Of a DNA stretch of 64,000 bases, positions 13,023 through 41,602 are shown in pieces. The stretch comes from Bacteroides sp. (GTDB lineage Bacteria; Bacillota; Clostridia; Oscillospirales; Acutalibacteraceae). The notes under the pieces are model-generated. The model was not told the DNA's origin. It was given only the letters and a program-made list of their open reading frames with translations, and searched no databases. The stretch's first letter is position 1. Each line of letters starts with the position of its first letter. A program made the position numbers and the translations under genes. The stretch lies in the NCBI GenBank assembly GCA_023665085.1, contig JAMPEQ010000012.1, positions 1 to 64,000 of the forward strand, given 5' to 3'.

Positions 13023-16000
13023 TTATTTAAACAGATTTCTAAACCAGTTTAAAACAGTATGTATGAACTTCAGAATTTTTTGCCAAAATGACATCAGTCT
13101 GTCCTTAAAGAAACTAGATTTTGTATTTTCGTCATCCTCCCGGGATGTTTCATCATTCTCTTTATTTTCGCTGTCAATATTCTGTTCAGCATTCTGTGAT
13201 GAATTGTTATACTTTTGAGCAGTATCTTTACTTTTATTTACAGAACCTTTATCTTCATTCGATTTTGCAGTATCTGCAGTGATATTTCTATCATCATTTT
13301 TACTGTTTACTGAAGCATTAACATCTGTATTTTTATTAGAATTACTGCTTTTCTTTTTACTGTTACTGCTGGAATTTGTTTTATCGCTATTGCTTCCCTT
13401 AATAAAAGTATAGCTCAAATTCTCTTCTTCAAATTCATCCTGATAATCATTATTATCGTTTTGTTCTGAATTTACTGATGAAATTGAATCAGCATCATTA
13501 CTGCTGTCAATCGGTTTTGACGGATAAGACGGAGAAAACGCATCATTTTTATTGTCAGGTATTTCAGCGGCAGGCGGTATATTATTTGACTTAACAATAT
13601 TAAATCTGCCAACAGCACCGAAAATGCTATAGTCGCCAAGACCGAGTACTGTTACCTTTGCCGATCCGACATTGATATTATCACTATAGCTTGCAATATA
13701 ATCCTTGTTCAAGCCAAGACTCCTGTTTTTTACAGTAACATTTACTTCGGGTGTAATTGCTTTTCCTGTATATTCCTGATCAGGAATAGGTGCAATCACA
13801 AAAGTTTCACAAGGAATAGATTTCTTTTCAGCATAAAATTCAACATAAGAATCTTCCAGACAAATAATTGTAAGATTATCACAATTTTCAAAAGCTGTGT
13901 CGGCAATAGTTGTAACAGAGTCTGCAATAAATGCTGTTTCAAGATTTGTACAGTCTGCAAAAGCGTAGTCCTTAATTTCTGTTACAGCATTACCTACAAC
14001 AATAGTTTCGAGCTGACCGTTGCCGCAAAATTCCTTTTCTGCAATATAAGCCTCACGCTCGTCCTGAGTAAAATAGAACTTTTTAAGCTGACTGCAGCAT
14101 TTGAATGTACCTGTTGAATTTTCAGATATACCCTGATAATAATATAGTACATATGTTAAATCTATACTTTCAAGAGCAAAACAATACGCAAAACATTCTT
14201 TACCAAGTGATTTAACATTTGCAAGATTTACGTATGACAAATCAATACATTTTTCAAAAACATTATTTGAAATCGAATTAACTGTATTTGGAATAACAAT
14301 ACTCTTCAGATTAGTCTGATAAAATGCGTATTGCTCAATTGACACAAGTCCGTCATAAAGCTTTATTTCCTCAAGTGCCGAGTTATAAAATGTGCCGCTG
14401 AGATATTTAACCTTGCATTTTAAATCAACCGCTTTAAGTGACGAACAATTTTCAAATGTATTCTGGAAATATTCAATTTCCATATTCTCCGGAATTACAA
14501 GAAGCGAAAGCATACAGCAGTCTGCAAAAGCAGATTCTATATAGTTATATCTGCTTCCCTCCTCGAACTCAACCCTTTCGAGCAAATTACATTCTTTAAA
14601 TGCATCATTCTCAATTGCTTTTAATGAATTAGGAAGAAAAACAGAATTCAGAGTTTCCATTTTTTGAAATGCAAATCTGTCTATTATTTCAAGAGATTTG
14701 CTCAAAGTCACATTTTCTAAATAATGATTGCCTGCAAACGCATATTCAGCAATTTCCTTTACTGTATCAGGTATAGCAAACCTGCTTCCTAATTTCAGTC
14801 TTGGATAAATTAAAAGCTTTGTCTTGTCTTTATTATAGAGAACTCCGCTATCAGTACAGTAATTAGTAACCTTGTCACCAACCGATATACTTTCAAGAGT
14901 ATTTGCATAACGATTCCATACATCACTAAAAAGCAATTCTTCAATATTTACATTAGGACTGTTTACCTCCAGATGAACAGTGGAGGTAAGAACCAATGCT
15001 TCACTGCCGATATAGTCAATATTTTCAGGAATAACAAAATTATCAAATCCACATCCGAAAAAAGCTTTATCGCCAATGCTCTTCAAACCCTTACCGAGAA
15101 TAAGGTTTGTCAAATTGCTGCACTGATTAAACGCTTCATTATCAATTGATACCACGCTGTCAGGAATGATAAGATCCCCCGAAACGCCGCAATAGTAAAA
15201 AGCCTTTTCGCCTATAGTCTGTAAAGTATCAGGAAGAGGAGTGATTTTTGAAAGATTTTTGCACATATAAAATGCATTGCACTCAATTCTTTCAAGCTTT
15301 ATAGGAAGAGAAACACTTGTTAAATTCGTCTTACTGAAAGCATCACTAAGAATTCTTGTAACAGGCTTTCCGTTTATATAGTTAGGTATAACAAGCTCTT
15401 TCTTATTGCCCTGATAACCGCTTATGGAAATACTTTCTGTACCCTCATAATACAAAAAGTCCTGATAAAGCTGTTCCTCCATTACCTTAATATCTTTATA
15501 CTTGCTGTTGCCATAAAATACATTTTCGCCCAAATGCATTATACTGTCAAGATTAATATCTGTGAGAGCCTTGCAATTATAAAATGCAGCATCATTAAGT
15601 ATAATCGTAGAGTTAGACAAAATAACATTTTTCAAATTAGAGCATTCCGAAAAACTTTCTGCCGGAATTTCTGTAAGAGCAGTATTACTGAAATCAACAT
15701 TTTTAAGAGTTTTTGAACCCTTAAATGTACTTGCAGAAATCTTCTGCAGCTTATTACAATTACTGAAATCTATACTTTCAATCTTTGTATTTCTCAGACT
15801 TAAGTCAACTGACTGCAGTGCAGAATTTTCTTCAAAATTGATCTGCTTTAAATTTTTACATGTTGAAAACACATCATTCAGCGTAATAAGATGTGAATTT
15901 TTCTTAAAGTTTACTGTTTCCAGCGAAGTACAAAATTCAAAAGAATTAACACCAATATTGTTTACAGATGCAGGAATATCTATATTCTTAAGATTGATAC

Positions 16001-17102
16001 AGTTTTGGAATGCGCCATCTGCTATGGATGTGCATGAGGATGGGGTTTCAAATAAAACTGATGTTACGGAAGAATATTTAAATCCATTTAAAATTTTAAC
16101 TCCTTTAGGGATAATAATTTTGTTAATTTCACTGTAAGCAAAAGCATCGGAATCAATTTCTTTGACACGACTGGTTTTACCGAATTTAAAGCTGTTTACA
16201 TTTGTATACGAAAATGCAAGTGAAGAAATCTTTTCTATTTTACTGTTAAATATTACTGTATCAATATACGCAGTTGAAAAAGCGTATTTTGCAATATGGT
16301 CTACACTGCCCGGCATTTCATAAAAATCTTCATACTGATCCTCTTCGCCAAACGGCACTGCCAGAACAGTTTTCATATCATATGTATACAAAGCACCATC
16401 ATGCACAGTAATATATGGATTATTTCCTCTCAGTGTAATATCTTTAAGCTCTGTCTTTGCAAATGGATTCTGAAGCTCGTTTTTTTCATATTCATGAACA
16501 TTTATATCAACACCATATTCAGAAAAATCTGCACTCATAATATTTGTCTGCGAGCCAATGGACACAGAAGAAATATTTGATTCGTAAAAGCTTTGGTTTT
16601 CGATATACTTCAGGCTGTCAGGAAGAACAATATCAGTATTTGCAAACACTGTTCCTGAAAATGATTTACTGCTTATCAATTCCAGTCCCTCAGGAAAATT
16701 GATACTTCTTATGGTTGATCTTTGAAAAGCACCCTCTCCTGAAATATATTTTAAAGTGCTTGGCAGAGTTACTGTTATGCTGCTGCAGTTTCTGAACACC
16801 CAGCTTGAAATATATTCAATACCTTCACTTATAACAACTTTTTTTACAGAAGTTTTTGAGTCAAAGGTTCGGTTAAGACCTGCAACCCTGCATCCGTCAA
16901 GCTCTGCAGGCACAACAACCGTACTATCTGTTCCGACATAGTTATCAAGCTCAATCACTGTTTCATTATCATTTGAATAGAGAATGCGATATGTGAACAG
17001 ACCATCATCTGACTTGAGAAATGCTGAAGCATATACAGGCATTGATGTTATCAGCATTATTAAAGCCATTATTATGCTGATTATTTTTGAAATTCTCTTC
17101 AT
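13023..17102 (-). CDS. BspA-like leucine-rich-repeat surface protein
   Basis: A ~1359-residue exported protein. Residues 1-28 are a signal peptide ending at VYASA. From about 35 to 1100 it is a long array of LRR_5/BspA-type repeats with the phrase F-x-x-C-x-x-L-x-x-I-x-x-P-x-x-V-x-x-I-x-x-x-A-F. About 1105-1175 is an MBG-like domain (YTGKAITPEV, then DYIASYSDNINVG). The next ~155 residues are a Ser/Asn/Lys/Asp-rich, low-complexity region, and the last ~25 are hydrophobic and basic (FMQ-free, WQKILKFIHTVLNWFRNLFK). No LPXTG motif is present, so anchoring may be by the tail. BspA-type proteins bind host or microbial partners. The ATG at 17102 follows GAGGGGTGACGAT, four bases after the anti-sigma stop. 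Confidence 0.9.
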   Translation of the reverse strand: MKRISKIISIIMALIMLITSMPVYASAFLKSDDGLFTYRILYSNDNETVIELDNYVGTDSTVVVPAELDGCRVAGLNRTFDSKTSVKKVVISEGIEYISSWVFRNCSSITVTLPSTLKYISGEGAFQRSTIRSINFPEGLELISSKSFSGTVFANTDIVLPDSLKYIENQSFYESNISSVSIGSQTNIMSADFSEYGVDINVHEYEKNELQNPFAKTELKDITLRGNNPYITVHDGALYTYDMKTVLAVPFGEEDQYEDFYEMPGSVDHIAKYAFSTAYIDTVIFNSKIEKISSLAFSYTNVNSFKFGKTSRVKEIDSDAFAYSEINKIIIPKGVKILNGFKYSSVTSVLFETPSSCTSIADGAFQNCINLKNIDIPASVNNIGVNSFEFCTSLETVNFKKNSHLITLNDVFSTCKNLKQINFEENSALQSVDLSLRNTKIESIDFSNCNKLQKISASTFKGSKTLKNVDFSNTALTEIPAESFSECSNLKNVILSNSTIILNDAAFYNCKALTDINLDSIMHLGENVFYGNSKYKDIKVMEEQLYQDFLYYEGTESISISGYQGNKKELVIPNYINGKPVTRILSDAFSKTNLTSVSLPIKLERIECNAFYMCKNLSKITPLPDTLQTIGEKAFYYCGVSGDLIIPDSVVSIDNEAFNQCSNLTNLILGKGLKSIGDKAFFGCGFDNFVIPENIDYIGSEALVLTSTVHLEVNSPNVNIEELLFSDVWNRYANTLESISVGDKVTNYCTDSGVLYNKDKTKLLIYPRLKLGSRFAIPDTVKEIAEYAFAGNHYLENVTLSKSLEIIDRFAFQKMETLNSVFLPNSLKAIENDAFKECNLLERVEFEEGSRYNYIESAFADCCMLSLLVIPENMEIEYFQNTFENCSSLKAVDLKCKVKYLSGTFYNSALEEIKLYDGLVSIEQYAFYQTNLKSIVIPNTVNSISNNVFEKCIDLSYVNLANVKSLGKECFAYCFALESIDLTYVLYYYQGISENSTGTFKCCSQLKKFYFTQDEREAYIAEKEFCGNGQLETIVVGNAVTEIKDYAFADCTNLETAFIADSVTTIADTAFENCDNLTIICLEDSYVEFYAEKKSIPCETFVIAPIPDQEYTGKAITPEVNVTVKNRSLGLNKDYIASYSDNINVGSAKVTVLGLGDYSIFGAVGRFNIVKSNNIPPAAEIPDNKNDAFSPSYPSKPIDSSNDADSISSVNSEQNDNNDYQDEFEEENLSYTFIKGSNSDKTNSSSNSKKKSSNSNKNTDVNASVNSKNDDRNITADTAKSNEDKGSVNKSKDTAQKYNNSSQNAEQNIDSENKENDETSREDDENTKSSFFKDRLMSFWQKILKFIHTVLNWFRNLFK

Positions 17103-17106
17103 ATCG

Positions 17107-17772
17107 TCACCCCTCAATTGTAAAAACTATGGAAAAAGCACAACCATCGTAGCTGACAACAAGAAGAAGCTTGCTGTCGTCACCATCTACACCGCGTGTA
17201 ATATTGGTTTGACATTTTTCCATCGGTATATCTTTCTGGAAATTATCATCATAAACTGCTATAACATTAATTTTATCAAAGTCAATATCCTCTTCACTCT
17301 CTACTGTAAGCCTTATATCATCTGCAAGCTGAGCATAAAGAGCTTTGACCTTTGAATTTTCTTCAATAGTATTGTCAGCGGCAATGCCAAGAGCATATGC
17401 TATTGAATTAAGCAGTTCCTTTGCCTGAGCAGCAAGCTGAGGCTGAGTATAAAACAGCATAGCTGTTGAGAACACAATAACAATTGCCGCTGCAGCTGTG
17501 CGGCGGAAAAATGAATTATTAGCTGAAGTATTTTTATGGCAGAATTTTATTAGCTTTTTTGTAGTAAGAAGTCTGATTGCTGGAAAAGAATTTTCAGATG
17601 AAAGCTCATTAAGAGCATCAATACATTCGTCTATAAGATCAGTATCCATTAAATCATCAGATTTTGCAAGTTCTTCATCAATAACTGAATTTAAAAGTAT
17701 TTCTGCTTCTGATATAAAATTCATATCAGTATAGAGATAGCTTATTGTATCTTTATTTACCGTTATATTCAA
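17107..17772 (-). CDS. Membrane anti-sigma-like protein
   Basis: A 221-residue protein with an acidic, helical cytoplasmic part (1-85), one membrane helix (about 92-108, AAAAIVIVFSTAMLFYTQ) and a ~110-residue outside domain. This topology and position fit an anti-sigma factor holding the ECF sigma at the membrane. The classical zinc motif (HxxxCxxC) is not present, so it is either a divergent member or another sigma-regulating protein. The start is probably UUG at 17772: it overlaps the sigma stop (TTGA) and has AGGGAG six bases upstream, while the first ATG is 16 codons inside. Translation should be coupled to the sigma factor and to the LRR gene downstream. Confidence 0.65.
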   Translation of the reverse strand: MNITVNKDTISYLYTDMNFISEAEILLNSVIDEELAKSDDLMDTDLIDECIDALNELSSENSFPAIRLLTTKKLIKFCHKNTSANNSFFRRTAAAAIVIVFSTAMLFYTQPQLAAQAKELLNSIAYALGIAADNTIEENSKVKALYAQLADDIRLTVESEEDIDFDKINVIAVYDDNFQKDIPMEKCQTNITRGVDGDDSKLLLVVSYDGCAFSIVFTIEG

Positions 17773-18613: not shown

Positions 18614-19759
18614 TTACAAATATGTATTGATAATAAAATCGGTAACCCTCTTTGTAGCATTGCCGTCAGCATATTTATGAGCAATGCTTTTAATTTCATT
18701 TCTCTTCGCTTTAAGAATGTCATTACCTTGGGCAACATTGCAGATAAATTGACACAGCTCATCTGCTGTATAAATTTTTTCACCGCCCGCCATGATATAA
18801 TCAGGATCAACTATAAAACCGTTTTTGCTTTTGTAATCTTCAAAATCCTCCCAGCAAAGTCCTATAGGTCTATCTTTAAGAAGATAATCATAATAAACAG
18901 AAGAATAATCGCTCAGCAATGCATCAGCTTCACTTAAAAGCTCATAATTAAGCATATCATGCTTAATTAAAAAATCATTATCAATAAAAATAATATTGCT
19001 CAAATTCAGTGACGTAATATTTGAAATATCCTGAGCAAAATGAGGTTTTACAACAATCAAAGTATTATTCTCTTTGGCACAGATGTTAACTGCCATAGCA
19101 TCATCAGCATTATATATAATGGGTATTGATATATTGCTGCAGCTTCTGCCGTCGTTCTTAGACTGTCTGTAGGTAGGCATCCAGTAAATTAGCTTTTCAT
19201 ATGAATAATCTGCAAAAGCCTTTCTTGCCTTGTCTGAATTTTTGAAAAGAATATCATTTCTGGGGTAGCCGAGAGGCAAAAAGCTTTCTTCAGGAAAATG
19301 TGCCGACTTTGCCTGATAATTCATAAGATAATCTGACAAATCCACTGCGTTTTCTACATAATCAGGATATCTGTAATGTGTATCACTTTGCTTAAAAGCA
19401 GCACCATGGCAAAGGTGAATATAATGCTGACTCTTTTTCCTGTAAGGAAAAAACCAGTTACATGATATAAACACTTTTGCTCTTGAAAATTTAATTTTCT
19501 TATTAATCCACGCTGAAAGTGACTTGTCATTTTCAAAAACATATGAAACATTGGGTATATCAGGCAGTTCGGTTTTGTCAGCATCATCTTCAATATACCA
19601 AACCAATTCATATTTATTATTAAGTCCCCTGCTTACCATTTCATCAAACACTGCTTTGGTATTATCACTTAGAGCAGGAATGCTCTCAAAGCAAATGATA
19701 TTTCCGACAGGAAGTAATTTTATAAATTTATCAGCAATATTTTTTAATTTGTCTATCAT
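18614..19759 (-). CDS. TagF/TagB-like polyol-phosphate transferase
   Basis: A 381-residue member of the CDP-glycerol:glycerophosphotransferase family (teichoic acid polymerases and primases), single catalytic domain with no extra N-terminal part. Family motifs are HGAAFKQ near 140, LGYPRNDILF, WMPTYRQS, VVKPHFAQD, and the CDP-alcohol-binding DYSSVYYDYLLKDRPIGL. Such enzymes move a polyol phosphate (glycerol-P, ribitol-P) from CDP to a glycan or lipid acceptor. It is the last gene of the polysaccharide operon, next to the acyltransferase and the fused cytidylyltransferase-kinase that may make its donor. It is clearly paralogous to 27391-28548. Confidence 0.88.
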   Translation of the reverse strand: MIDKLKNIADKFIKLLPVGNIICFESIPALSDNTKAVFDEMVSRGLNNKYELVWYIEDDADKTELPDIPNVSYVFENDKSLSAWINKKIKFSRAKVFISCNWFFPYRKKSQHYIHLCHGAAFKQSDTHYRYPDYVENAVDLSDYLMNYQAKSAHFPEESFLPLGYPRNDILFKNSDKARKAFADYSYEKLIYWMPTYRQSKNDGRSCSNISIPIIYNADDAMAVNICAKENNTLIVVKPHFAQDISNITSLNLSNIIFIDNDFLIKHDMLNYELLSEADALLSDYSSVYYDYLLKDRPIGLCWEDFEDYKSKNGFIVDPDYIMAGGEKIYTADELCQFICNVAQGNDILKAKRNEIKSIAHKYADGNATKRVTDFIINTYL

Positions 19760-20906: not shown

Positions 20907-22460
20907 TTAGATAAGTAAAGATAAAATTCTAAGCCATTTATCAGTAAGCTCAAAAGAATCATTTTCGAAAATGCTGTTATGAAGTCTGAAAATGATATCA
21001 ATAATAATTGCCGATTTAAGTTTATCCTTATCAACAATATCCGAAAAGAAATCAACAAATTTTTTATAATTCTCAACAGTCATCTGTTCATTTTCGGTGA
21101 ATTCTGTACCGATAAAACGGGCAATATCAATTTCACATGGTGCAATATAGCCTATAGGATCAATGGCACGTATATCATTATCATTATACATAAGATTATA
21201 TCTGTGCATATCCCCATGGATAAGACTTTTCTTTTCTCCGCCAAAAACATTTTTGTAAAGCGAAACAGCTTTATTTACATACATCATTATTTCATCTTTT
21301 TTATAATCAAAATTATCTTCATTCAGTTTATTGTAAAGAATTGCTTCATAATCATGAAATGTATTTGCATATTCAGATGAAATTTCTATTTCTCTGTAGC
21401 TTGAAATTACCTTTTCAAAAAACTTATGAAGTCTGCTGTCTATTTCAATTTTACTGCTGTCAAGCTGCTCCATAAGGATTGCACTGCAGGCATCATCAAA
21501 ATCATACAGCTCACACATAAATGCAGATGCAAGCTTCTGATAGCCGCTTCGCTCCTGCTCATATCTATTTATAAAAGGCGGAATAATCTTTAAAACACAG
21601 TTTCCGTATTTTACGCTGTCAGCCATAAAAATAATTCCGAAATGAGATGTTTTAATCACCTCATAATCAGTAATCTGCCATTTTTTTAAAAGATTAGGAA
21701 TCTCTCTGTCAATAGTATTCTTCCACTGCTTTGTCTGAGACGGATAATTTTCAAAAAGATATCTGTTAAGCCTTTTTACGCTATCAAAAATTCTTCCAAG
21801 ATCAACATCATTATCCCTTGCATTTATAAGTGCCTCAAGATATTTTAAATCAGCAGGATATGTCAGCTTGAAATTATTTGTAAAATCAAAATAAAGTTCA
21901 ATCTTACTGCCCTCAGGAAGCTGTTGAGTAACCTCGGTCAAGGTGCTGTCAGGATCAAAGCTGTTTCTAAGAGTTTCAAAATCAAAGGCCTCAGGAGACT
22001 GCATAAGATAATACCTGTCTCTGTGTATCTGAGGAATATCATAACACCCCAGTGAATCTGTAATCTTTTGTGCAGTTACTACGGCAGTATTATTATCAAG
22101 ATAATCAAAATACTTATCTATAAGTTCTCCTGTTATCATCGGACGTACAGCGTCGCACACTATCATTTTACTGCAGGAATAATTAGCATCAATAAATTTT
22201 ATAGCATTGTCTAAGGACATATTACGGGTATCGCCGCCACCAGTAAAATCCACCTTATCAAGTGCAGAAATTGCTGTAAGATAGCTTTTATTTGCCTCAA
22301 TATTTGTTACAACAAGAATCTTATCAACACTTTCAGCCTCAAGAATTGCATCAATAACATATTCTATTACCATTTTGCCGTTAATCTTGTGAAACTGCTT
22401 TGGCACATTACTGCCGAAGCGTGCACCGATGCCATTGGCAAGAATTACTACAATGTTCAT
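20907..22460 (-). CDS. Fused IspD/TarI-like cytidylyltransferase and choline-kinase-like phosphotransferase
   Basis: A 517-residue two-domain protein. Residues 1-~230 are a GT-A-like nucleotidyltransferase of the IspD/TarI type: ILANGIGARFGSNVPKQF (6-23), DAVRPMI near 105, and an E-V-x-Q phrase (TEVTQQLPEGSKI). Residues ~250-517 are an APH/choline-kinase/LicA-like domain with the catalytic HGDMHRYN near 415-422 and the metal site IDPIG near 435. Both active sites look intact. I infer that the kinase phosphorylates a small alcohol (choline, ethanolamine, ribitol or glycerol type) and the other half makes CDP-alcohol for the TagF-like transferases at 18614 and 27391. A 143-bp gap before it could hold a weak extra promoter, but none was clear. 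Confidence 0.8.
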   Translation of the reverse strand: MNIVVILANGIGARFGSNVPKQFHKINGKMVIEYVIDAILEAESVDKILVVTNIEANKSYLTAISALDKVDFTGGGDTRNMSLDNAIKFIDANYSCSKMIVCDAVRPMITGELIDKYFDYLDNNTAVVTAQKITDSLGCYDIPQIHRDRYYLMQSPEAFDFETLRNSFDPDSTLTEVTQQLPEGSKIELYFDFTNNFKLTYPADLKYLEALINARDNDVDLGRIFDSVKRLNRYLFENYPSQTKQWKNTIDREIPNLLKKWQITDYEVIKTSHFGIIFMADSVKYGNCVLKIIPPFINRYEQERSGYQKLASAFMCELYDFDDACSAILMEQLDSSKIEIDSRLHKFFEKVISSYREIEISSEYANTFHDYEAILYNKLNEDNFDYKKDEIMMYVNKAVSLYKNVFGGEKKSLIHGDMHRYNLMYNDNDIRAIDPIGYIAPCEIDIARFIGTEFTENEQMTVENYKKFVDFFSDIVDKDKLKSAIIIDIIFRLHNSIFENDSFELTDKWLRILSLLI

Positions 22461-23737: not shown

Positions 23738-25288
23738 TTATATAAACCTCTTTAAAAATTTGATTTTGCCTTTCGTAATATTATTTATCAATCTAACAAC
23801 TGACTTAAATTCTTCTCTTTTTCTAAATAAAATAAAGAATATTGCATTAGGCACGATTGCACAAATTATAAGATTTACAATAATTGTTATTATATTTGAT
23901 TCTATCTTTATAATATTTGTAATACCAATACATATTGCCGCACAAATTGCTGTCAGCAATAAATATTTTATAATATCTATAATATATTTTTTGGGATTAC
24001 AATGAAAAACTGTTGTAAATAAATTATGTGTAAGCCATGGCATACCAACCACAACCATACTAGCAATAGTTGACAGAAGTATTCCGTATAATCCCCAAAA
24101 CTGCACAAGAATTATATTAAATACTAAATTAACTAATGAGCATGTTAACGGACGCCATTTATCTTCATGCCACATACCTGCAGCATCTTTATATACATTT
24201 AAAAGATTATTTATTTGTCTTATAATAAAGTATGAACAAAATACCACTACCATTCCATAAGGAAGTAAATTATCCTCACCTACCCATAATGTCATAAACG
24301 GCTGATACAGGCAGGCAAAACAACAAACACAAAATGCAGATATCCAAGAAATAATAAGTGTTATTTTCTTTAAATCATTGAAATTTTTTTCTTCGCTTTC
24401 GGTAATAAGGCTGTTTCCTATGCCGGCTAAACTTGAACTCGTTATAAGACTCACAAATCCAAAAATTGTATTCATAACAAAAAAATAATTTTGAAATTTT
24501 GCTAAGGCTATAAGTCCTAAGAAAGCTGATATTACTATTGTATCAGCTGAATCATACACTATACTTCCAATTTTTGATGTGAATAAATCAGCTACTTTTC
24601 TGTTGATTTTTTTCACTTCATCCTTTGGAAGTTTTCCCATGGCTTTATACTGTGGATAAATTTTATCAACAATACGTGCAGTAGTTAAATTTGAAACCAC
24701 TCCGGATATTGTAGCAACTATTAAATACAAATAATAATTTTTGAATATAAGGAGAACCAAAAACTGCCCCAAATACTTAACTGTATTAATTACATATCCT
24801 ATTTTATCACCAACATCATACCTTTGGTGAACACTCAACAGACAATTTTTATATGCAAACAGCCAATATGAAATAGCAGTTGTAACTAAATTGAGATAAT
24901 AGAGTATATAGATATTCATATCGCTGGGTATTTCTCCCTTTACCAAGTTAGGCAAAAAAGGAGTTATTGCTATGCCGATAACGAGAATCACAATGCCTAT
25001 AACACGATAATAGATTTTATATAATCTCATCAAAGCACATATTTTTTCTCCATCATCGTTAGCAACCGGCTCATACATACTAAATACAAGTGCAGAGCCT
25101 ATGCCAAGCTCAGCAAGATTAAGTACAGATAATACTGATGCAAACAAACTGCTAAGTCCTAAATATTCCATACCAAGCAAGTATATAATCGCTGTTCTCA
25201 TCAAAAACGGAATTATTAAATTATAAATCTTTGATATAGTACCAAAAAATAGATTTCGTATACTATTTTTACTTCTTTCGATTTTCAT
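23738..25288 (-). CDS. Wzx-like polysaccharide flippase
   Basis: A 516-residue membrane protein with about 12-14 helices, of the MVF/polysaccharide transporter superfamily. The N-terminus NLFFGTISKIYNLIIPFLMR and the conserved GIGSALVFSMYEP are typical of Firmicute flippases that move undecaprenyl-linked repeat units across the membrane. It overlaps the pyruvyl transferase gene by 20 bp. With the EpsG-like polymerase at 34472 and the priming transferase at 40949 it defines a Wzx/Wzy assembly route. Confidence 0.9.
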   Translation of the reverse strand: MKIERSKNSIRNLFFGTISKIYNLIIPFLMRTAIIYLLGMEYLGLSSLFASVLSVLNLAELGIGSALVFSMYEPVANDDGEKICALMRLYKIYYRVIGIVILVIGIAITPFLPNLVKGEIPSDMNIYILYYLNLVTTAISYWLFAYKNCLLSVHQRYDVGDKIGYVINTVKYLGQFLVLLIFKNYYLYLIVATISGVVSNLTTARIVDKIYPQYKAMGKLPKDEVKKINRKVADLFTSKIGSIVYDSADTIVISAFLGLIALAKFQNYFFVMNTIFGFVSLITSSSLAGIGNSLITESEEKNFNDLKKITLIISWISAFCVCCFACLYQPFMTLWVGEDNLLPYGMVVVFCSYFIIRQINNLLNVYKDAAGMWHEDKWRPLTCSLVNLVFNIILVQFWGLYGILLSTIASMVVVGMPWLTHNLFTTVFHCNPKKYIIDIIKYLLLTAICAAICIGITNIIKIESNIITIIVNLIICAIVPNAIFFILFRKREEFKSVVRLINNITKGKIKFLKRFI

Positions 25289-27390: not shown

Positions 27391-28548
27391 TCATAATTTG
27401 AGATTAATAATATAATCAACTACTCGTTCAGTAGAATTGCAGTCAACATAATCATGAACCATATTGCAGATTACATTTCTTTCTTCTTTATACACATCAA
27501 TACCGTCTGCTACATGAGAAATAAAATTAATCATATCATCACAGTTCAGTATTTTTTCACAAGGCTTCATTATAACATTCGGATCAACTGTGAAGCCCTC
27601 ATTTTTATTATACTCATCAAAATCCTCCCAGCAAAGACCGACAGGCTTGTCCGTAAGAAGAAAATCATAATACACTGATGAATAATCAGTTATAAGTGCA
27701 TCACAGCTTCCGAGCATTGAATAGTTTTCAAGAGAAATTGACTTTAAATAATCATTATCTATAAAAATAATATTGGATAAATCATCTGTTGAAATATGAG
27801 ATAAATCCTGTGCGGGATGCGGTTTAACAAGCAAGACAACCTTCTTTGCCTTTGCTGCGGCATTAATTATTTCTGCCTCTCTATTGCTATGCAGAATAGG
27901 CATTTCAACACTGCTGCAAATATGTGTTCTATCTAAATTGTGCTGGCGGTATGTAGGCATCCAGCAAATAAATTTACAGTTTTCTTTATTAAAAAGCTTA
28001 TTCAAATCAACCTTGCCTGAAATAAGCAAATCATTTCGAGGGAACCCAAGAGGGAGCATACATTTTTCATCACATTCCAAATTAACCGCATCATATTTTG
28101 CAAGAAATTTTGATATAGATACAACCTTAGGATTAATATAGCTATTAGGTAAAGTATATTTACCTCTTGTATTTTTGAAGGCTGCCCCATGAGCTAAATA
28201 AATAGATTGCTGTTTTTCGCTTTTTTGAGGTAAAAAAGCATTAGAAGATAAAATAATTTTAGCTGCATATGAGTAATAATATTTTCCTCGACTCCCTTTC
28301 CTGTAAACAACCTTAACGTTTTCAATATCCGAAAATATGTTTTTATCAACATCATTTTTATTATTAAGCATCCATACAAGCTTGTACTTTTTGTTCATAC
28401 CTCTTTTAAGCATTTCATCAAAAACATATAAAGCATTATCGGAAAATGCAGGTTCACTTTCAAATAATATTATATTTTTTAACCCAATAAAAGTATAAAA
28501 TATCTTTTTATAAACACAGAAAATCATGTTAATAATTTTGTAAATCAT
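27391..28548 (-). CDS. TagF/TagB-like polyol-phosphate transferase
   Basis: A 385-residue second member of the CDP-glycerol:glycerophosphotransferase family. It shares with 18614-19759 the motif order LAHGAAFKNT, PLGFPRNDLL, WMPTYRQHN, LVKPHPAQD and DYSSVYYDFLLTDKPVGLCW. The N-terminus has a hydrophobic stretch (about 5-25) that could act as a membrane-facing helix. Two such enzymes in one locus would allow one to prime and the other to extend, or each to decorate a different sugar. It lies between two GT2 genes, well inside the glycosyltransferase block. Confidence 0.88.
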   Translation of the reverse strand: MIYKIINMIFCVYKKIFYTFIGLKNIILFESEPAFSDNALYVFDEMLKRGMNKKYKLVWMLNNKNDVDKNIFSDIENVKVVYRKGSRGKYYYSYAAKIILSSNAFLPQKSEKQQSIYLAHGAAFKNTRGKYTLPNSYINPKVVSISKFLAKYDAVNLECDEKCMLPLGFPRNDLLISGKVDLNKLFNKENCKFICWMPTYRQHNLDRTHICSSVEMPILHSNREAEIINAAAKAKKVVLLVKPHPAQDLSHISTDDLSNIIFIDNDYLKSISLENYSMLGSCDALITDYSSVYYDFLLTDKPVGLCWEDFDEYNKNEGFTVDPNVIMKPCEKILNCDDMINFISHVADGIDVYKEERNVICNMVHDYVDCNSTERVVDYIINLKL

Positions 28549-28583: not shown

Positions 28584-29531
28584 TTATAATTTTGAATATA
28601 GACGATAGCATAATTTAAAAAGCTTTGGCGATTTGCAGATAAAATTATTCATACATTTTGCAAACTTACTGTTACAATTCAAAGAATTAAATATTACACG
28701 ATATTTTTTTATTTCATCAGCAATTTCATAAAAACAGTCAGTTAAATTATTTTTATCATCTCTTATAATTTCACGTGCAATACATAACAGCTCGCTATTA
28801 TATTTTTTTAACAGCGTATTTTTTTCATCTTCGTTTAAATTTCCGTTATTTAAAATAAATTTGGTGTTTTTCCATCTGTAAACCATATTTGCATCAAGTG
28901 TATTTACAGCAGAATTTTCTCTGTCATTATAGCAATAAAGCTTTTTACCGCTAACGGCAATGGCATTTGCTCTTTTCAACACATAAAAATTAAAAAGATA
29001 ATCTTCTCCAATTTTATTTTTTTCATTAAAACGAATATTTGAAACAATATCCTTTTTATAAAGTTTAATGCAAACTGAAGGACAGCATAACTCATCACTT
29101 AAATATCTTTGCAATATTTTATTATCATAAAACCCTTCAGCGTAATACAAAACATTATCTTTATTGCTGAAAAAATTGCACACAGACACATCGCATGAAT
29201 GCTTTAAAGTAAGACCGATTAACTCCTCATACATATTTTCTTTGATGAAATCATCACTGTCAATAAAACCTATATAATCTCCCGAAGCTGCCTCAAGACC
29301 TGCATTTCGTGCTGATGATACACCACCGTTTTTTTTATGTATTACTTTAATTCTATCATCCTTTTCTGCCCATTTATCACATATTGCAGGGCAGTCATCA
29401 GATGAACCATCATCTACAAGTATAATCTCAAGATTTCTATATGTTTGATTAACAATACTTTCAATACACTTATCCAGATATTTTTCAACATTATAAACAG
29501 GAACAATTATACTTATTATTGAATCTATCAT
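28584..29531 (-). CDS. GT2 family glycosyltransferase
   Basis: A 315-residue GT-A enzyme: IISIIVPVYNVEKYL, LVDDGSSDDCP and DSDDF for donor and metal binding, then ED in KIGEDYLFNFYVL. A Cys-rich phrase (DVSVCNFF, CCPSVC) lies in the middle. Its ATG overlaps the stop of the next GT2 upstream by one base (TAATG). The N-terminal 100 residues are almost interchangeable with those of the following genes, while the C-terminal half differs, pointing to a family diversified at the acceptor side. Confidence 0.9.
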   Translation of the reverse strand: MIDSIISIIVPVYNVEKYLDKCIESIVNQTYRNLEIILVDDGSSDDCPAICDKWAEKDDRIKVIHKKNGGVSSARNAGLEAASGDYIGFIDSDDFIKENMYEELIGLTLKHSCDVSVCNFFSNKDNVLYYAEGFYDNKILQRYLSDELCCPSVCIKLYKKDIVSNIRFNEKNKIGEDYLFNFYVLKRANAIAVSGKKLYCYNDRENSAVNTLDANMVYRWKNTKFILNNGNLNEDEKNTLLKKYNSELLCIAREIIRDDKNNLTDCFYEIADEIKKYRVIFNSLNCNSKFAKCMNNFICKSPKLFKLCYRLYSKL

Positions 29532-30484
29532 TATTTTTTCTCCAAATATAGCTTTAAAAACATTTTATAAATATCAGGACAATATTTAAACATAAAAAGC
29601 TTAATTCTTGTCTTCTTATTTGTGAGTGTACCTGAAAGCTCACTATAAGACTGAAAAAGTATTTCTCTTATTTTCTTATACTGCTCACTGCTGCTTTTTA
29701 TTTTACCTTTAACACAAATTGCAGCGCTGTCAAGAAGCCAGTTTGCAAAAATCTGTGCGGCAGGTGCAGTTTTTTCCTGCTCAAAAATATATTTGTGAAC
29801 ACTGATATTATCAAGCCATGCAGACAGATTCTTATCGGAATAAGTAACACTTGAATTATTATAATAATAATTATATTTCGCACCGCTGCAAATTGCCACA
29901 TTACGAACCCTTTTAATAATAAAATAATTCATTAAATGATCCCCGCCGATTTTTATATTACATGAAATATTTAATTCCGGGATCATCGATCGACGATAAA
30001 GCTTGCACCAGCAATTGCTGTTGAGGCTGTTATCCTGAAGCATTTTCAATAAAAACTCTTCTCCTGATACTACTGTATCAGCACCGTCACCAACAATATA
30101 AGATGGTGTGCCGTCCTCGTGAATTCTATTATAACAACACCTTACAATATCAATATCGTCTTCAAACTTTGAATGCATATATTCATACATATCAGGTTCA
30201 ATCCAATCATCACTGTCAACAAAACCAATAAACTTTCCACTTGCCTCAGCAATACCTGCTGTCCGTGCAGAAATCTCGCCGCCGTTCTTCTTATGTATTA
30301 CTTTTATTCTATCATCTTTTTCAGCCCATTTGTCACAGATTTGGGGGCAATTATCAGATGAGCCGTCATCTACAAGTATTATTTCCAAATTTTTATATGT
30401 TTGATTTATAATGCTTATAATACATCTGTCAATAAACTTTTCAGCATTATACACAGGAACAATAACCGTAATCAATTCATTCAT
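29531..30484 (-). CDS. GT2 family glycosyltransferase
   Basis: A 317-residue GT-A enzyme with TVIVPVYNAEKFI, LVDDGSSDNCP and metal-binding DSDDW. It has the variant GGEISARTAGI where most paralogs have GGVSSARNAGL; the same variant occurs in 32410-33396 (GGELSARTAGI), so these two form a subgroup. The acceptor half contains KIGGDHLMNYF in place of the more usual GED, so the base residue may differ. One-base TAATG overlap with the next gene. Confidence 0.9.
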   Translation of the reverse strand: MNELITVIVPVYNAEKFIDRCIISIINQTYKNLEIILVDDGSSDNCPQICDKWAEKDDRIKVIHKKNGGEISARTAGIAEASGKFIGFVDSDDWIEPDMYEYMHSKFEDDIDIVRCCYNRIHEDGTPSYIVGDGADTVVSGEEFLLKMLQDNSLNSNCWCKLYRRSMIPELNISCNIKIGGDHLMNYFIIKRVRNVAICSGAKYNYYYNNSSVTYSDKNLSAWLDNISVHKYIFEQEKTAPAAQIFANWLLDSAAICVKGKIKSSSEQYKKIREILFQSYSELSGTLTNKKTRIKLFMFKYCPDIYKMFLKLYLEKK

Positions 30485-30488
30485 TGCA

Positions 30489-31454
30489 TTACCTCCTAAA
30501 ATGTCTTATTGCAAATTTATATCCCGCCGGACTGATTAAAAGCAGCAGCGTCCTCAGCTTAGTAAGCTTTGAATAAATGGGAAGAGTAAAGATTTCTTTT
30601 TTATGTGATACAATACGATTTCTTATCTGTGAAAATCTTTCTGTATACTTTCCTGATTCAATAATCTGCCTTAGTGTTCTAAAGGACTTTAGAACATCTC
30701 CCTTAACACAATGAACAAGAATATCATCATCAGCAAGAGTAAATATAATATCCATAACTCTATGCTCATCAAAATTATTTTCATTAATGCCTTTGTTTGT
30801 CATTGAATCTTCATTAAAGATATAATGATAACGGTCAATGTCATTGTATACCATTTTATTTATATTTTTTGCCACCATAAAGTTAAACAAAGTATCTTCG
30901 GCAAACTTAAAACGCGTATCAAATCTAATATCACCTATAACCGAACGTTTAAAGAGCTTATTACATGGAGATACAGGGAGAATTCCCACAGCTTCGCCTA
31001 CATCCTCTAAAAGCTTCTTGTTGTCAATCAGTTGTATATCATGATTACCTGTTCCCCACTCCTCTGTAGTACCATCATCTGACTCTCTTACAACACCGCA
31101 TCTGGCAGCATCAGCGTCATTATCAATGATTTGATTAAGCATAATTTCATACATATCCAAATCAATATAATCGTCTGCATCAATAAAAGCAATATAATCG
31201 CCTGATGCATTATCAAGTCCTGTATTTCTGGCAGAAGAAGCACCGCCGTTTTCTTTATGTATTACTTTTACACGCTTATCTTTTTCTGCGAACCTATCAC
31301 ATATAATTGGACTTTTATCAGTTGAACCATCATCAACCAGTATTATTTCAAGATTTTTATAACTCTGATTTATTATGCTGTTTATTGATGAAGTCAAGTA
31401 ATTTTCAGCATTATATACAGGAATAATAACAGATATTTTAGAACAATCTTTCAT
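30489..31454 (-). CDS. GT2 family glycosyltransferase
   Basis: A 321-residue GT-A enzyme with ISVIIPVYNAENYL, LVDDGSTDKSP and DADDY as the metal site. The acceptor half has FAEDTLFNFMVA. Instead of the CP pair found in most neighbours (GSxDxCP) it has SP, and uses DRFAEKDKRV in place of DKWAEKDDRI, making it more distant from the adjacent copies. Five bases separate it from the next gene. Specific sugar unknown. Confidence 0.9.
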   Translation of the reverse strand: MKDCSKISVIIPVYNAENYLTSSINSIINQSYKNLEIILVDDGSTDKSPIICDRFAEKDKRVKVIHKENGGASSARNTGLDNASGDYIAFIDADDYIDLDMYEIMLNQIIDNDADAARCGVVRESDDGTTEEWGTGNHDIQLIDNKKLLEDVGEAVGILPVSPCNKLFKRSVIGDIRFDTRFKFAEDTLFNFMVAKNINKMVYNDIDRYHYIFNEDSMTNKGINENNFDEHRVMDIIFTLADDDILVHCVKGDVLKSFRTLRQIIESGKYTERFSQIRNRIVSHKKEIFTLPIYSKLTKLRTLLLLISPAGYKFAIRHFRR

Positions 31455-31473
31455 TTTTAGATTCCTTTACCGG

Positions 31474-32409
31474 TTAATCAAATTTTACTAATTTACGATA
31501 TAAATTAGAAGACATAAATAATATAATCACTTTGATTTTATCTCTTTTTGTATACATATTTGAAAAAAGTATTTCTTTTTTGTATTTTAAAATACCTTTT
31601 CTCAAATTTTCAAATTCATCATAAAACTTTCCTGAATTAATAATTCCGCTCAAAACTACAAAACATGATGAAACATAGCCTCGCACTGCATAAGGTAAAA
31701 ATTCTTTATCTGTAACATCATTCATCATAATTTCTTTTGAAACAACAGCATCTAAAGAGCCCTTATTAAATTCACTGTGAACTATACTGTTTTCATGTTG
31801 AAAATAATGATACAATTTAAAATTACTTTCAACAATTATATTTGAATTTTTAAATGCATAGTAGTTGTAAACCAAATCTTCACAGCACTGCAGATTAGGC
31901 ATCTGAATATTTTTAACGATTTCTTTTTTATAAAGCTTATTCCAAATAACGCCGTATTTATAATCACCAATTAAAATAAGCTTTAACGCTTCTTCTGCCG
32001 TTATATTCTTTGAGTTTGCTTCTCCTGATGATTCATCATTTACTTGATAATCACAAACCGAAATATCTGCATCAGCTTCAATAAGCTGTTTTAATAAAAA
32101 TTCATACATATTTGCTTCAATATAATCATCACTGTCTGTGAATCCTATATAATTACCTGATGCAACAGCCATGCCTGCATTGCGTGCAGACGCAGCGCCT
32201 TTATTTTCCTTTTGATGTATCACCTTAATTCTGCTGTCTTTTTTTGCCCATTCATCACAAATTTTCGGACAATTGTCAAAAGAACCGTTATCTACAAGAA
32301 TTATTTCAAGATTTTTATAGGTCTGATTAACAATGCTTTCAATGCATTTATCAAGATATTTTTCAACATTATAGACAGGAACTATTATACTTATAAGTGA
32401 ATTTTGCAT
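31474..32409 (-). CDS. GT2 family glycosyltransferase
   Basis: A 311-residue GT-A enzyme with ISIIVPVYNVEKYL, LVDNGSFDNCP and metal-binding DSDDY. The donor loop reads DNGS rather than DDGS, an uncommon change at a residue that usually contacts the nucleotide, so donor specificity or activity may differ. The acceptor half has CCEDLVYNYYAF with the ED pair. It directly abuts the GT2 gene upstream (stop at 32410). Confidence 0.88.
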   Translation of the reverse strand: MQNSLISIIVPVYNVEKYLDKCIESIVNQTYKNLEIILVDNGSFDNCPKICDEWAKKDSRIKVIHQKENKGAASARNAGMAVASGNYIGFTDSDDYIEANMYEFLLKQLIEADADISVCDYQVNDESSGEANSKNITAEEALKLILIGDYKYGVIWNKLYKKEIVKNIQMPNLQCCEDLVYNYYAFKNSNIIVESNFKLYHYFQHENSIVHSEFNKGSLDAVVSKEIMMNDVTDKEFLPYAVRGYVSSCFVVLSGIINSGKFYDEFENLRKGILKYKKEILFSNMYTKRDKIKVIILFMSSNLYRKLVKFD

Positions 32410-33396
32410 TTAATAACCTCTTATTTTCCTTCTGACTAAAATAGTTTGATTATATAGCTTAGGTGCAAACATCAGTAAAACTGTTCCAATCCGATGTCGT
32501 CTTTCAACAACATCGCGGCAGTCTTTTGAAAGAATGTATTTTTTATATTTAAGAATATCTTTTCTCAGCACATCATATCTGTCAAGACATTTATGATTAC
32601 GTATAACACTATTAATCAAAAAGAAATCATTTTTCACTTTATTTATAACCTGAAATTTATATGCAGGGTGATTTTTGTCAAAATCGTCATCAACAATTTT
32701 ATATGCCTGCATTGAATCATCAATAAGATTATATTTAATTTCTCCTGCTATTGCTGATTCACAATGACGAAAATAATTATACTTAATTTGATTTGAAACA
32801 ATAAGCCTGTTAACTTTTTTATATAAAAAATAATTATACATAAAATCAGATGAGAAAGATAAATTGCCGGGAAGCTTAGGCATACCATCAAAAAGGGAGC
32901 TGTGATACATCTTATTGCACATCGACCATAATGAATCTGCATTCAAATATTTTATAATATCATTGAAATCATAAAATTTTAAATACTCTTTTTCCTGAGT
33001 TTCATTAGGTGAATCCACATCATTTACATCTATGGTACGCATACCTAGACATACAACCTGTGCGTCATTATTTACAGCAAGATTATATAAATATTCGTAC
33101 ATATCATTATCAACCCAGTCATCACTGTCGATAAAACCAATAAACGTTCCGGTCGCCTCTGTAATACCTGCTGTTCTTGCAGAAAGCTCACCTCCGTTTT
33201 GCTTATGTATTACCTTAATTCTATCATCCTTTTTAGCCCATTTGTCGCATATTGCGGGGCAATTATCAGGAGAACCATCATCAACCAGTATTATCTCAAG
33301 ATTTTTATAGGTCTGATTAACTATACTTTCAACACATCTATCAAGATATTTTTCTGCTTTATATATAGGAACTATTACTGATATTAATTCACTCAT
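32410..33396 (-). CDS. GT2 family glycosyltransferase
   Basis: A 328-residue GT-A enzyme with ISVIVPIYKAEKYL, LVDDGSPDNCP and DSDDW. The acceptor half lacks the clear ED pair; at that place it reads FSSDFMYNYFLY. The C-terminal half matches the GT2 at 4112-5074, which lies 27 kb away by thyA. ATG is preceded by AGGTGAAATAA-type spacing. The 51-bp gap to the next upstream GT2 gene shows no terminator. Confidence 0.9.
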   Translation of the reverse strand: MSELISVIVPIYKAEKYLDRCVESIVNQTYKNLEIILVDDGSPDNCPAICDKWAKKDDRIKVIHKQNGGELSARTAGITEATGTFIGFIDSDDWVDNDMYEYLYNLAVNNDAQVVCLGMRTIDVNDVDSPNETQEKEYLKFYDFNDIIKYLNADSLWSMCNKMYHSSLFDGMPKLPGNLSFSSDFMYNYFLYKKVNRLIVSNQIKYNYFRHCESAIAGEIKYNLIDDSMQAYKIVDDDFDKNHPAYKFQVINKVKNDFFLINSVIRNHKCLDRYDVLRKDILKYKKYILSKDCRDVVERRHRIGTVLLMFAPKLYNQTILVRRKIRGY

Positions 33397-33447
33397 TTAT
33401 TTCACCTATTTCCTTTAAAATTTTTAATGGTAAGCATACTGTATTTT

Positions 33448-34470
33448 TCATAAAAAATATTTTAACAAAACAGAATACAAGTACACTAATGTTACGCTTC
33501 CGGCAGATAAAAATTTCGCGAATACCCTCGTATGAACAGGCAAAATGGAATAATTAATATTTTCAACTGCACATTTAACATTATTATTCAAAACAAATTT
33601 TTTTAAAGTAAGCTTTTTCTCTTTTGCAGATTTTTTGTTATCAGGATTAGCTTCATTACGCACAACCAGATTAATCATATAAAGCAAATAGTAGCTTAAT
33701 GATTTTGAAAAATTATAACCGCTTTTGTTAAATGCATCATTAAGGATTTCTATAGGAATTAAAATAGTATTTTCAAGATTCACATCATAGGAATTAGTCA
33801 TTGAGTCCGGATTATTTCTGTAATGATAAAGAGCTTTATCAACATATGCAAGACTTTCTGCATCAATCAAACACGGATACGTAAATGCAGCATCCTCACC
33901 TATTTTTATTTTTGGTGTTACTTTATACAAACAGTTTTCAAGAAGTTCTTTTTTATATACCTTTGACCAACAGCATGGATTAATTCCAAAATGATAATAC
34001 GGAGCTTTAAAAAGCATTGTAGGATAAATCTCTTTAATCATTTTATCTTTAGTAAAATATTCAGCTGAAAGCTTCTGATCGCTGAAAATATCCTTATCAG
34101 GATATGCATATATAAATTCACAAAGAGCCATATCAGGATTATACTTTTCAATCACATTATGAAAACATTCATACATATCAGGCTCAATCCAGTCATCGCC
34201 GTCGACAAAGCCGATATAATCACCATTAGCTTTTTTCAAGCCTGCCTGACGTGCAGACATCAACCCTCCGTTTTCCTTATGCACAACCTTTACTCTTTTA
34301 TCAAGTTCTGCGTACCTGTCACAAATCTGAGGGCAGTTATCAGGAGAACCGTCATCCACCAGAATAAGCTCAATATTCTTATACGTTTGAGATAGAATAC
34401 TATCAACGCATTTATTTATATATTTTTCGACATTGTAAATGGGTACAATAATACTAATTAAACATTCCAT
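33448..34470 (-). CDS. GT2 family glycosyltransferase
   Basis: A ~340-residue GT-A enzyme with ISIIVPIYNVEKYI, LVDDGSPDNCP and DGDDW (rather than DSDD) as the metal site, then KIGEDAAFTYPCL in the acceptor half. It carries a longer C-terminal region with a hydrophobic stretch at the very end (VTLVYLYSVLLKYFL) that could attach it to the membrane. The ATG at 34470 lies one base after the EpsG-like gene's stop; an in-frame UUG six codons upstream is less likely. Confidence 0.9.
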   Translation of the reverse strand: MECLISIIVPIYNVEKYINKCVDSILSQTYKNIELILVDDGSPDNCPQICDRYAELDKRVKVVHKENGGLMSARQAGLKKANGDYIGFVDGDDWIEPDMYECFHNVIEKYNPDMALCEFIYAYPDKDIFSDQKLSAEYFTKDKMIKEIYPTMLFKAPYYHFGINPCCWSKVYKKELLENCLYKVTPKIKIGEDAAFTYPCLIDAESLAYVDKALYHYRNNPDSMTNSYDVNLENTILIPIEILNDAFNKSGYNFSKSLSYYLLYMINLVVRNEANPDNKKSAKEKKLTLKKFVLNNNVKCAVENINYSILPVHTRVFAKFLSAGSVTLVYLYSVLLKYFL

Positions 34471-34471
34471 A

Positions 34472-35683
34472 TTAAAGATCACTTTCAAAATTCAACCACA
34501 ATAATGAACTTCCGTTACATAAATACCAAAAATGAACTGCTGTAAAAACAATAAACGCAATCATAACAATAGTTCTCAGTTTAATGCTGAAATTCTCATC
34601 AGATATACTGTAATAACTTAAATGTGCTTTCTTTCGCTTTTCGATCTGACTTCCCTGCAGCTGCATTCCAATCATAAAAATCAAACCTCCGGCTAAAGGC
34701 AGAATCCATCTTGCGAATCGAACAAATATTAAACCGCTTAATGTTGCACCTAAAGAAAAATATATTATGACTGATAAATATTTATATAAGCGATTTAACT
34801 CGTTTCCGAAATTACTATTGAAAATATAATGAGAAAAATACATAAGAAGAAGCAAACAAACAGCCAAAACTGATATATTAACAAGAAACATAGTTCCTGT
34901 TTCAAGTGAAACCCCGCCACTATGATGCTCTGCTTTACCTGCAAGAGACTGAATAAAAGAATTATCCGTTCTTTTTGCAAGAAACTGAATGATCAAATTA
35001 CCGCCGGCTAAACCGAATATCAACAAAAAATCGATAAACTTTCCACCCACATTAAGAGCAAAAAATGCAATAAACACTAGCACAACAGGCAGAATTCCTG
35101 ATGAATGAGTAAGTGAAGCTAAAAAATATCCCAAAATACAGAGTGGTATATGCTTTCGTTCTGCCATATGCTGATAGGCACAGGCAAAGGCAACAGCGAA
35201 AGCTAATCCGTTTCTTATTCCGCTTGCAACATCATAATACCAATATGTCGAGATAAAAAACATAGAAGCAAAAAACAGATTTGTTTTATTAATACCGAAT
35301 CTATTTGCAGCTTTGTAAAGTACATAAAAACCAAGTCCATATACAATAAAAATCGTTACAGCAGGAAGCCAGCTGTTATTATCAAGCTTACTGAAAAAGT
35401 AAATATAGTACGCAGCTACTCTGAAATTCTTAAAATCGAACTGATCTTCATCAATGTATCGTTGTAATTCATCATATCCGCCTTCACGCATTTCATTGAT
35501 AGCCTTAAAATAGCGTGACAGATCATCATTTTGAGCAGGCATAATATTAAATGCTATTAATGAAAATAAAAATGTAACCAACAAGAAAGGAAACCAAGAA
35601 AACTTTCGAGGTGCAACAATATACACCACCGCAAACACCGCTACCGACAGTATAAAGCAGGTCATTGCAGACAAGCCTAACAT
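34472..35683 (-). CDS. EpsG/Wzy-like polysaccharide polymerase
   Basis: A ~403-residue membrane protein with about ten helices of the EpsG family. The early loop NDDLSRYFKAINEMREGGYD and the FRVAAYYIYFFSK and SLTHSSGILPV phrases are typical of EpsG-like proteins, thought to polymerise repeat units outside the membrane. An in-frame start lies two codons earlier, but the ATG at 35683 has GGAGATTGAAT upstream. It is the only polymerase candidate in the locus. Confidence 0.85.
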   Translation of the reverse strand: MLGLSAMTCFILSVAVFAVVYIVAPRKFSWFPFLLVTFLFSLIAFNIMPAQNDDLSRYFKAINEMREGGYDELQRYIDEDQFDFKNFRVAAYYIYFFSKLDNNSWLPAVTIFIVYGLGFYVLYKAANRFGINKTNLFFASMFFISTYWYYDVASGIRNGLAFAVAFACAYQHMAERKHIPLCILGYFLASLTHSSGILPVVLVFIAFFALNVGGKFIDFLLIFGLAGGNLIIQFLAKRTDNSFIQSLAGKAEHHSGGVSLETGTMFLVNISVLAVCLLLLMYFSHYIFNSNFGNELNRLYKYLSVIIYFSLGATLSGLIFVRFARWILPLAGGLIFMIGMQLQGSQIEKRKKAHLSYYSISDENFSIKLRTIVMIAFIVFTAVHFWYLCNGSSLLWLNFESDL

Positions 35684-40949: not shown

Positions 40950-41602
40950 TATACGGTTTCCTTTTCTACACTATTTACATCTGCGTTAATGTCTGCTGCT
41001 GTACCCTGGACTGTTATTGCAACATTTTCATTGTCTTTATTAACAAACACATTTCCTACAGTTAAAAATAATATTTTTATATCAAGCAGCAGACTCATAT
41101 TATCAACGTAAAACACATTAAGTCTTATTCTTTCATGCCATTCGGTATGCTTTCTTCCGTTTACCTGAGCCCATCCCGTTATGCCTGGCTTAACCTCAAA
41201 CATACGAAGCTGTTCAGCAGTGTATTCTTCAATAGGCCACGGATGATATGTAAGAGGCGGTCTGAAACCTACTAAAGACATTTCACCTTTAAGTACATTT
41301 ATAAGCTGCGGCAGCTCATCAATACTTGTTGCACGAATAAATTTACCAACCTTTGTAACTCGCATATCATTCGCAAATGAATACTGCCCTGTACCCATTT
41401 GCTCAGCACCTACACACATTGAACGAAACTTATATATCTGAAATTCTTTTGCATTTTCGCCTAATCTTGTCTGCTTAAAAAGAACAGGACCTTTTGACTC
41501 AAGCTTAATTGCAGCAGCGATAATAATCATTAACGGTGACAAGACAATAATGCCAAACAAAGAAATAATAATATCACAAAATCTTTTGAAATATCTATAC
41601 AT
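40949..41602 (-). CDS. Undecaprenyl-phosphate sugar phosphotransferase (priming enzyme)
   Basis: A 217-residue polyprenol-phosphate hexose-1-phosphate transferase of the short EpsL/PglC type. It has one N-terminal reentrant or membrane helix (about residues 8-33), then the catalytic block [20 protein letters not shown] with [25 protein letters not shown] and RP, and WAQVNGR. It starts the repeat unit by loading the first sugar phosphate onto undecaprenyl phosphate. The long WcaJ-type membrane half is absent. A 60-residue acidic tail follows the core. One-base overlaps on both sides show tight coupling. Confidence 0.95.

Follow-up and report, generated by a model that had tools for sequence, protein, structure and literature searches.

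An IspD/TarI-type cytidylyltransferase fused to an APH(6)-like kinase, a candidate salvage enzyme for a CDP-alcohol in a capsule-type gene run

In the known routes to CDP-polyols the polyol phosphate comes from reduction of a sugar phosphate, which is how TarJ forms its alcohol phosphate, and in the choline route the phosphate comes from a kinase. The idea of joining a kinase and a cytidylyltransferase is already known from the LicC-LicA proteins, and LicCA of Treponema denticola is known as well. Here we describe a protein of this general design from a gut bacterium, encoded in a 64,000-nucleotide stretch of DNA (hereafter the window; positions 1 to 64,000 of contig JAMPEQ010000012.1, assembly GCA_023665085.1, named Bacteroides sp. 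and placed by GTDB in the Acutalibacteraceae), where a 517-residue open reading frame on the reverse strand (20907..22460) fuses a cytidylyltransferase to a kinase within a capsule-type gene run that also holds two TagF-like PF04464 enzymes and an acyltransferase. Judging from its domains, conserved residues and gene neighbourhood, we propose with a probability of about 0.62 that this fusion is a bifunctional enzyme of capsule or teichoic-type polysaccharide synthesis, which would salvage an alcohol to its CDP form in a single polypeptide.

The window protein resembles LicC-LicA in carrying the cytidylyltransferase N-terminal to an APH-fold kinase and in its salvage logic, but its best Pfam family is PF01128, with a weaker match to PF12804 (33.1 bits), where LicC-LicA proteins belong to PF12804/PF00483, and its kinase lacks both PF01633 and the DxEY motif. 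Given that another cytidylyltransferase family is joined to another kinase lineage, the window fusion most likely arose separately. The LicC-LicA proteins of the window's genus also differ from it in having a winged helix-turn-helix (wHTH) domain, which the fusion lacks; three such proteins, named by Pfam and about 590-605 residues long, are L120 (genome G047), L121 (G012) and L122 (G040), of which L121 is followed by a sodium:solute symporter gene and L120, after one nucleotidyltransferase-like gene, by a BCCT gene. With the TarI/TarJ route the fusion shares an IspD-family cytidylyltransferase beside TagF-like polymerases, except that a kinase domain stands in TarJ's place. At the level of titles and the beginnings of abstracts, an IspD-APH fusion was undescribed among the literature matches listed, some of them partial sets and with most subscription journals outside their coverage.

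Both domains are present with their folds and catalytic residues conserved. The N-terminal domain (residues 3-212; 21825..22454, reverse strand) is of IspD/TarI type by Pfam and has R14, K21, D103, R106, R147 and K198 as in the TarI and IspD proteins of the genus, while the C-terminal domain (residues 222-517; 20910..21797, reverse strand) has a kinase fold and, by profile comparison, resembles APH(6)/hydroxyurea-type kinases. K291, E303, D417, N422 and D434 of the kinase are invariant in all 17 rows of the fusion alignment, as are H415, G416, H419 and again D417 and N422 within the catalytic motif HGDMHRYN (residues 415-422; 21195..21218, reverse strand). We take the roles of these kinase residues to be those of APH-fold kinases, and R14, K21, D103 and their companions presumably act as in IspD and TarI. 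Because catalytic residues are kept in both domains, both halves look active. These results agree with an earlier sequence-only reading of the locus, which had seen a cytidylyltransferase and a kinase fused in one protein, presupposed a working kinase, and placed the gene in one run with two TagF-like enzymes and an acyltransferase, all three of which Pfam recovers.

The fusion is constant within its lineage. A search of 148 relatives recovered an intact fusion from 16 genomes, none outside the window's genus; apart from the own genome these are fourteen with 60-67% identity and G026 with 38%. G021 makes a seventeenth, but there the gene is broken into two frames (contig 44; loci L016, L045 and L063), through either a true disruption or a fault of assembly. 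A kinase profile run against 80 genomes of the genus returned the same 17 as strong matches (E below 1e-60) and 10 others as weak ones only, every strong match (17/17) lying within a fusion. In samples of the class (391 genomes) and phylum (398), no genome besides the own one contained the fusion, the remaining matches being weak or stand-alone kinases; around seven of the latter (L068 and L069 in the class sample, L132-L136 in the phylum sample) no cytidylyltransferase, TagF-like or LicD gene was found by local hidden Markov models (HMMs) over short stretches. A wider contig scan gave 16 fusion loci, 15 of them in genomes already sampled and one in a further metagenome-assembled genome (L062, 52%), and plasmid records held no relative at 80% query coverage. 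One carrier, L048, is a named culture-collection strain, Eubacterium coprostanoligenes ATCC 51222, in which a gene for a GT2+TagF-like protein adjoins the fusion.

The cytidylyltransferase domain falls in the superfamily of IspD and TarI (PF01128, 91.9 bits against a gathering score of 27, catalytic residues present) and, by sequence, is a clade of its own outside the cut-offs of both. It shares fold and catalytic residues with the IspD of isoprenoid synthesis, but scores 123.1 bits on TIGR00453 (IspD; cut-off 181.3), where four IspD proteins of the genus reach 226-230 and the separate IspD of the own genome 227.2. Some TarI proteins narrowly pass TIGR00453 too, so this model does not discriminate function sharply. 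On NF001183 (ribitol-5-phosphate cytidylyltransferase) the fusion reaches 90.0 bits against a curated cut-off of 166; six TarI-like proteins from the genus reach 204-365, and the four IspD proteins, at 124-147, all lie above the fusion. In a 47-row tree the 17 fusion rows form one clade (100/100) beside 12 TarI (100/99) and 9 IspD rows (100/100); the tree covers genus and order sequences without PDB rows, and long branches, the G026 fusion row among them, may meet in it. TarI and IspD rows were named by match pattern, with which NCBIfam agrees for TarI L018, L093, L094 and L116 and for IspD L064, L101, L102 and L103.

Residue patterns point the same way. Across the fusion, TarI and IspD rows of that tree, G10, R14, K21, D103, R106, P107, R147, K198, T200 and others are at least 90% conserved, with Ala replacing R106 in the G026 fusion row. 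TarI can be told from IspD at 26 columns. Five of them, where the fusion does not reach 85%, were set aside (one as TarI, one as IspD, three neither); the 21 settled ones divide into 15 matching neither family, 5 matching TarI and 1 matching IspD. At nine further columns TarI and IspD agree with each other while a different residue is conserved in the fusion. Given that most separating columns match neither family and that these nine are specific to the fusion, the domain would fit a third substrate. The 5 to 1 leaning towards TarI, together with a fold nearest IspD and TarI, is also what one would expect if the fusion made CDP-ribitol (or the CDP form of another common pentitol) through salvage, its kinase acting on free ribitol in TarJ's stead, and this would suit an own genome with no detected TarI and a run in which no dehydrogenase was found among 23 genes (15 scanned with Pfam, 8 grouped with glycosyltransferases by BLAST). 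We regard this as unlikely, since the 15 unmatched columns and an NF001183 score below even the IspD proteins speak against it, as does the further TarI-like match in at least 11 of the 17 fusion genomes, in G024 within the same gene run.

The kinase domain has only its fold in common with choline kinase and LicA, and by sequence is a relative of APH(6)/hydroxyurea-type kinases (PF04655). Profile comparison gives 99.2% probability (E 1.3e-19, 245 columns) against two stand-alone APH(6)-type kinases and 2.4% against four LicA-type domains of relatives, figures that are rough given sets of two and four rows, one of the two APH(6) rows (L099) being confirmed as PF04655 by Pfam. The HGDLHxxN...IDP.G signature is shared with these kinases, but the window domain is fused and lies below the Pfam cut-off (12.0 bits, E 0.13, gathering score 27 bits); all 15 members match PF04655 at E up to 10, the best at 2e-6. 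At the position of the choline-kinase DxE(Y/F) motif all 17 fusion rows have DPIG (residues 434-437; 21150..21161, reverse strand), whereas the stand-alone relatives with a DP motif have DPKG in 5/6, and absence of this DPK lysine suggests a changed kinase substrate. The best-known APH(6) members phosphorylate a cyclitol of streptomycin. A kinase with another use, for example on an antibiotic or a sugar, might simply have become joined to the cytidylyltransferase without being its biosynthetic partner, as stand-alone kinases of this type are the nearest sequence relatives. This is improbable, since no strong match in the genus occurs apart from the cytidylyltransferase, the DPK lysine is absent, and PF04464, PF14907 or nucleotide-sugar genes turn up in 15 of the 17 stretches, the exceptions being the short contigs of G049 and G056.

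The LicA-like assignment made from sequence alone also hinted at a choline or ethanolamine pathway, with the fusion as the equivalent of LicA plus LicC, and both fare poorly. Even at E up to 10, PF01633 is absent from the matches of all 15 kinase domains; with the 2.4% profile probability and DPIG, this rejects a choline-kinase/LicA identity by sequence. TagF-like enzymes are, to our knowledge, not usual phosphocholine transferases, and G012 carries a wHTH-LicC-LicA protein in addition to the fusion. In the available part of PMC4364537, the choline site of LicA consists of Tyr197, Trp251, Trp254 and Tyr268, and Glu196 is important in catalysis; Glu196 and Tyr197 correspond to Ile and Gly in 17/17 fusion rows when mapped via the conserved Asp and Asn motif anchors, without a structure overlay. 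Collectively, these points make the choline or ethanolamine pathway very improbable. E453 (D in G026) lies by eye near the place of LicA Glu213 and was dropped as a counterpart, the spacing being off by one residue; an acidic residue at the Glu213 position is kept by some, not all, of the four LicA-type domains.

For the bifunctional salvage enzyme that we favour, the enzyme families suggest the following chemistry. The C-terminal kinase would convert a free alcohol and ATP to the alcohol phosphate, the N-terminal domain would convert this with CTP to the CDP-alcohol, and a TagF-like transferase would attach the alcohol phosphate, taken from CMP, to a polyol or sugar in the growing polysaccharide, with LicD or a PF14907 protein perhaps serving as transferase in other genomes. 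Further modification of the polymer may come from the acyltransferase and the pyruvyl transferase encoded in the run. It is from these families that we infer the two activities and the sequence in which they act, the substrate, and the use of the product by the TagF-like enzymes. The candidate users in the window are two PF04464 enzymes on the same strand as the fusion (18614..19759 and 27391..28548), 45% identical in alignment and scoring 136.1 and 142.3 bits against a gathering score of 22.1. H118 and H240 are invariant in 6/6 rows and, by analogy with the available part of PMC5974469, may be the TagF catalytic pair.

Neighbourhoods in relatives support part of this link to TagF-like enzymes. 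A PF04464 gene lies within the retrieved stretch in 7/17 fusion genomes and is the immediate, co-directional neighbour, confirmed by Pfam, in five (G045, G005, G039, G021 and G026), with a chance of 4e-8 for at least 5/17 that is rough, as it takes gene density to be one per kb, treats the genomes as independent and ignores relatedness. Given that PF04464 occurs in 80/80 genus genomes, only its adjacency is informative, not its presence. In three of the five the neighbour is a GT2+PF04464 protein (931 residues in G045, 918 in G005, 908 in G039) with the domain order of the GT-A/TagF-like capsule polymerases described in the available part of PMC5974469, which however belong to another bacterial group. 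The genes flanking the fusion and this neighbour in G045 and G005 are on the opposite strand on both sides, which gives the pair the look of a two-gene unit. G039 has a 304-residue frame on the same strand, 146 bases from the pair. The run in G024 comprises the fusion, an acyltransferase, a TarI-family enzyme, an epimerase, LicD, a glycosyltransferase-cluster gene and a PF04464 gene.

Elsewhere the partner changes. A PF14907 nucleotidyltransferase adjoins the fusion in seven genomes (G016, G036, G025, G048, G003, G012 and G001; loci L035, L036, L039, L041, L042, L043 and L044), confirmed by Pfam (L035, L036, L039) or by position (G016, G048, G003, G012, G001). PF14907 is common in the genus (49/49 sampled genomes, 1-5 matches each), so a chance neighbour is less unlikely, and its role as an alternative phospho-alcohol transferase is a guess from gene position. 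PF14907 as a relative of LicD was tried and rejected at 5.3% profile probability. LicD itself lies in the stretches of G036, G024, G021 and L062, and the G007 stretch has three acyltransferases and nucleotide-sugar genes with no recognised candidate transferase. Some of the proteins matched by the local HMMs had gone into building those models and so match by construction; the neighbour calls rest on Pfam, and LicD in G024 and G021 on positions.

Several observations weigh against the proposed pathway. The predicted structure of the full fusion has a pTM of 0.58 with the mutual placing of the two domains poorly predicted, so that substrate channelling is unsupported. PF04464 was not in the retrieved stretch in 10/17 genomes, several of whose contigs run out after a few kb. 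A glycerol-3-phosphate cytidylyltransferase (TagD) is also encoded in the own genome, where the two window TagF-like enzymes may not both use the fusion product, and, as neither TarI nor a PF01633 choline kinase was found there, only glycerol is separately covered in it and redundancy in that genome does not exclude ribitol or choline. According to the available part of PMC5974469, hexose phosphate is another group that TagF-like domains transfer in Gram-negative capsule polymerases, so not every TagF-like gene of the window has to use a CDP-alcohol.

The alcohol had been left open among choline, ethanolamine, ribitol, glycerol and something less usual. Our first guess is a polyol or similar compound other than glycerol, ribitol or choline, since several fusion genomes hold a separate route to one of these, which weakens the case for all three. 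Of the 15 fusion genomes searched for TagD, four have a match above its cut-off (the own genome, G007, G024 and G039); G049 and G056 fell outside this sample. Among the at least 11 genomes with a TarI-like match apart from IspD, four were scored against the cut-off of 166 (G005 364.8, G045 359.8, G021 344.5, G024 204.1) and seven rest on match pattern only; the gene next after TarI in G005 and G045 encodes a dehydrogenase that is TarJ-like by place, the one in G005 matching ADH_N and related models. For choline there is the LicC-LicA-type protein of G012 beside its symporter gene. No single fusion genome was seen with all three routes (CDP-glycerol, CDP-ribitol and CDP-choline), and elimination of the common alcohols is an argument, not a proof.

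It is possible, and we suggest it only tentatively, that the fusion opens a route to a CDP-alcohol beyond CDP-glycerol, CDP-ribitol and CDP-choline, in which an APH(6)-derived salvage kinase, together with an IspD-fold cytidylyltransferase of a third kind, would activate an unusual polyol or cyclitol that the cell takes up in the gut, for use as a new phospho-alcohol on a surface polymer, transferred by TagF-like, LicD or PF14907 enzymes. The fusion seems to mix the logics of the polyol and choline routes, and with it a surface could be decorated with a free alcohol that the cell finds. The protein is easily tested and so offers a way to find a new activated alcohol, and a constant fusion beside a changing transferase offers an approach to the uncharacterised PF14907 nucleotidyltransferases.

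Of the other genes in and beside the window run, those for the acyltransferase, flippase, pyruvyl transferase and priming sugar transferase are likewise on the reverse strand. The membrane acyltransferase (PF01757, 19774..20850) separates the fusion from the first TagF-like gene; no transporter was found among the fusion's immediate neighbours in the window. A probable flippase (23738..25288), so called from its sequence and place with no Pfam match, and a polysaccharide pyruvyl transferase (PF04230, 25269..26396) lie between the fusion and the second TagF-like gene, and a priming sugar transferase (PF02397, 40949..41602) stands toward the other end of the run, adjoined by an HpcH/HpaI-type aldolase (41602-42420). 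Six adjacent GT2-cluster genes (28584-34488, two of them scanned with Pfam) have similar protein starts, as if from repeated duplication. A domain of GINT1_N type, resembling the N-terminal part of glucosamine inositolphosphorylceramide transferase, is encoded at 37812-38726 (115.2 bits), and a 1364-residue BspA-type leucine-rich-repeat protein (13023-17117) lies beside the polysaccharide genes. Outside the window, the same genome encodes a PEP mutase fused to a CTP_transf_like domain (L119; G000:C32:5000-9000), with a phosphonopyruvate-decarboxylase-like gene cut by the stretch edge (306.3 bits, cut-off 312.5), LicD and, by eye, an aminotransferase as neighbours; this is likely a phosphonate surface-glycan cluster.
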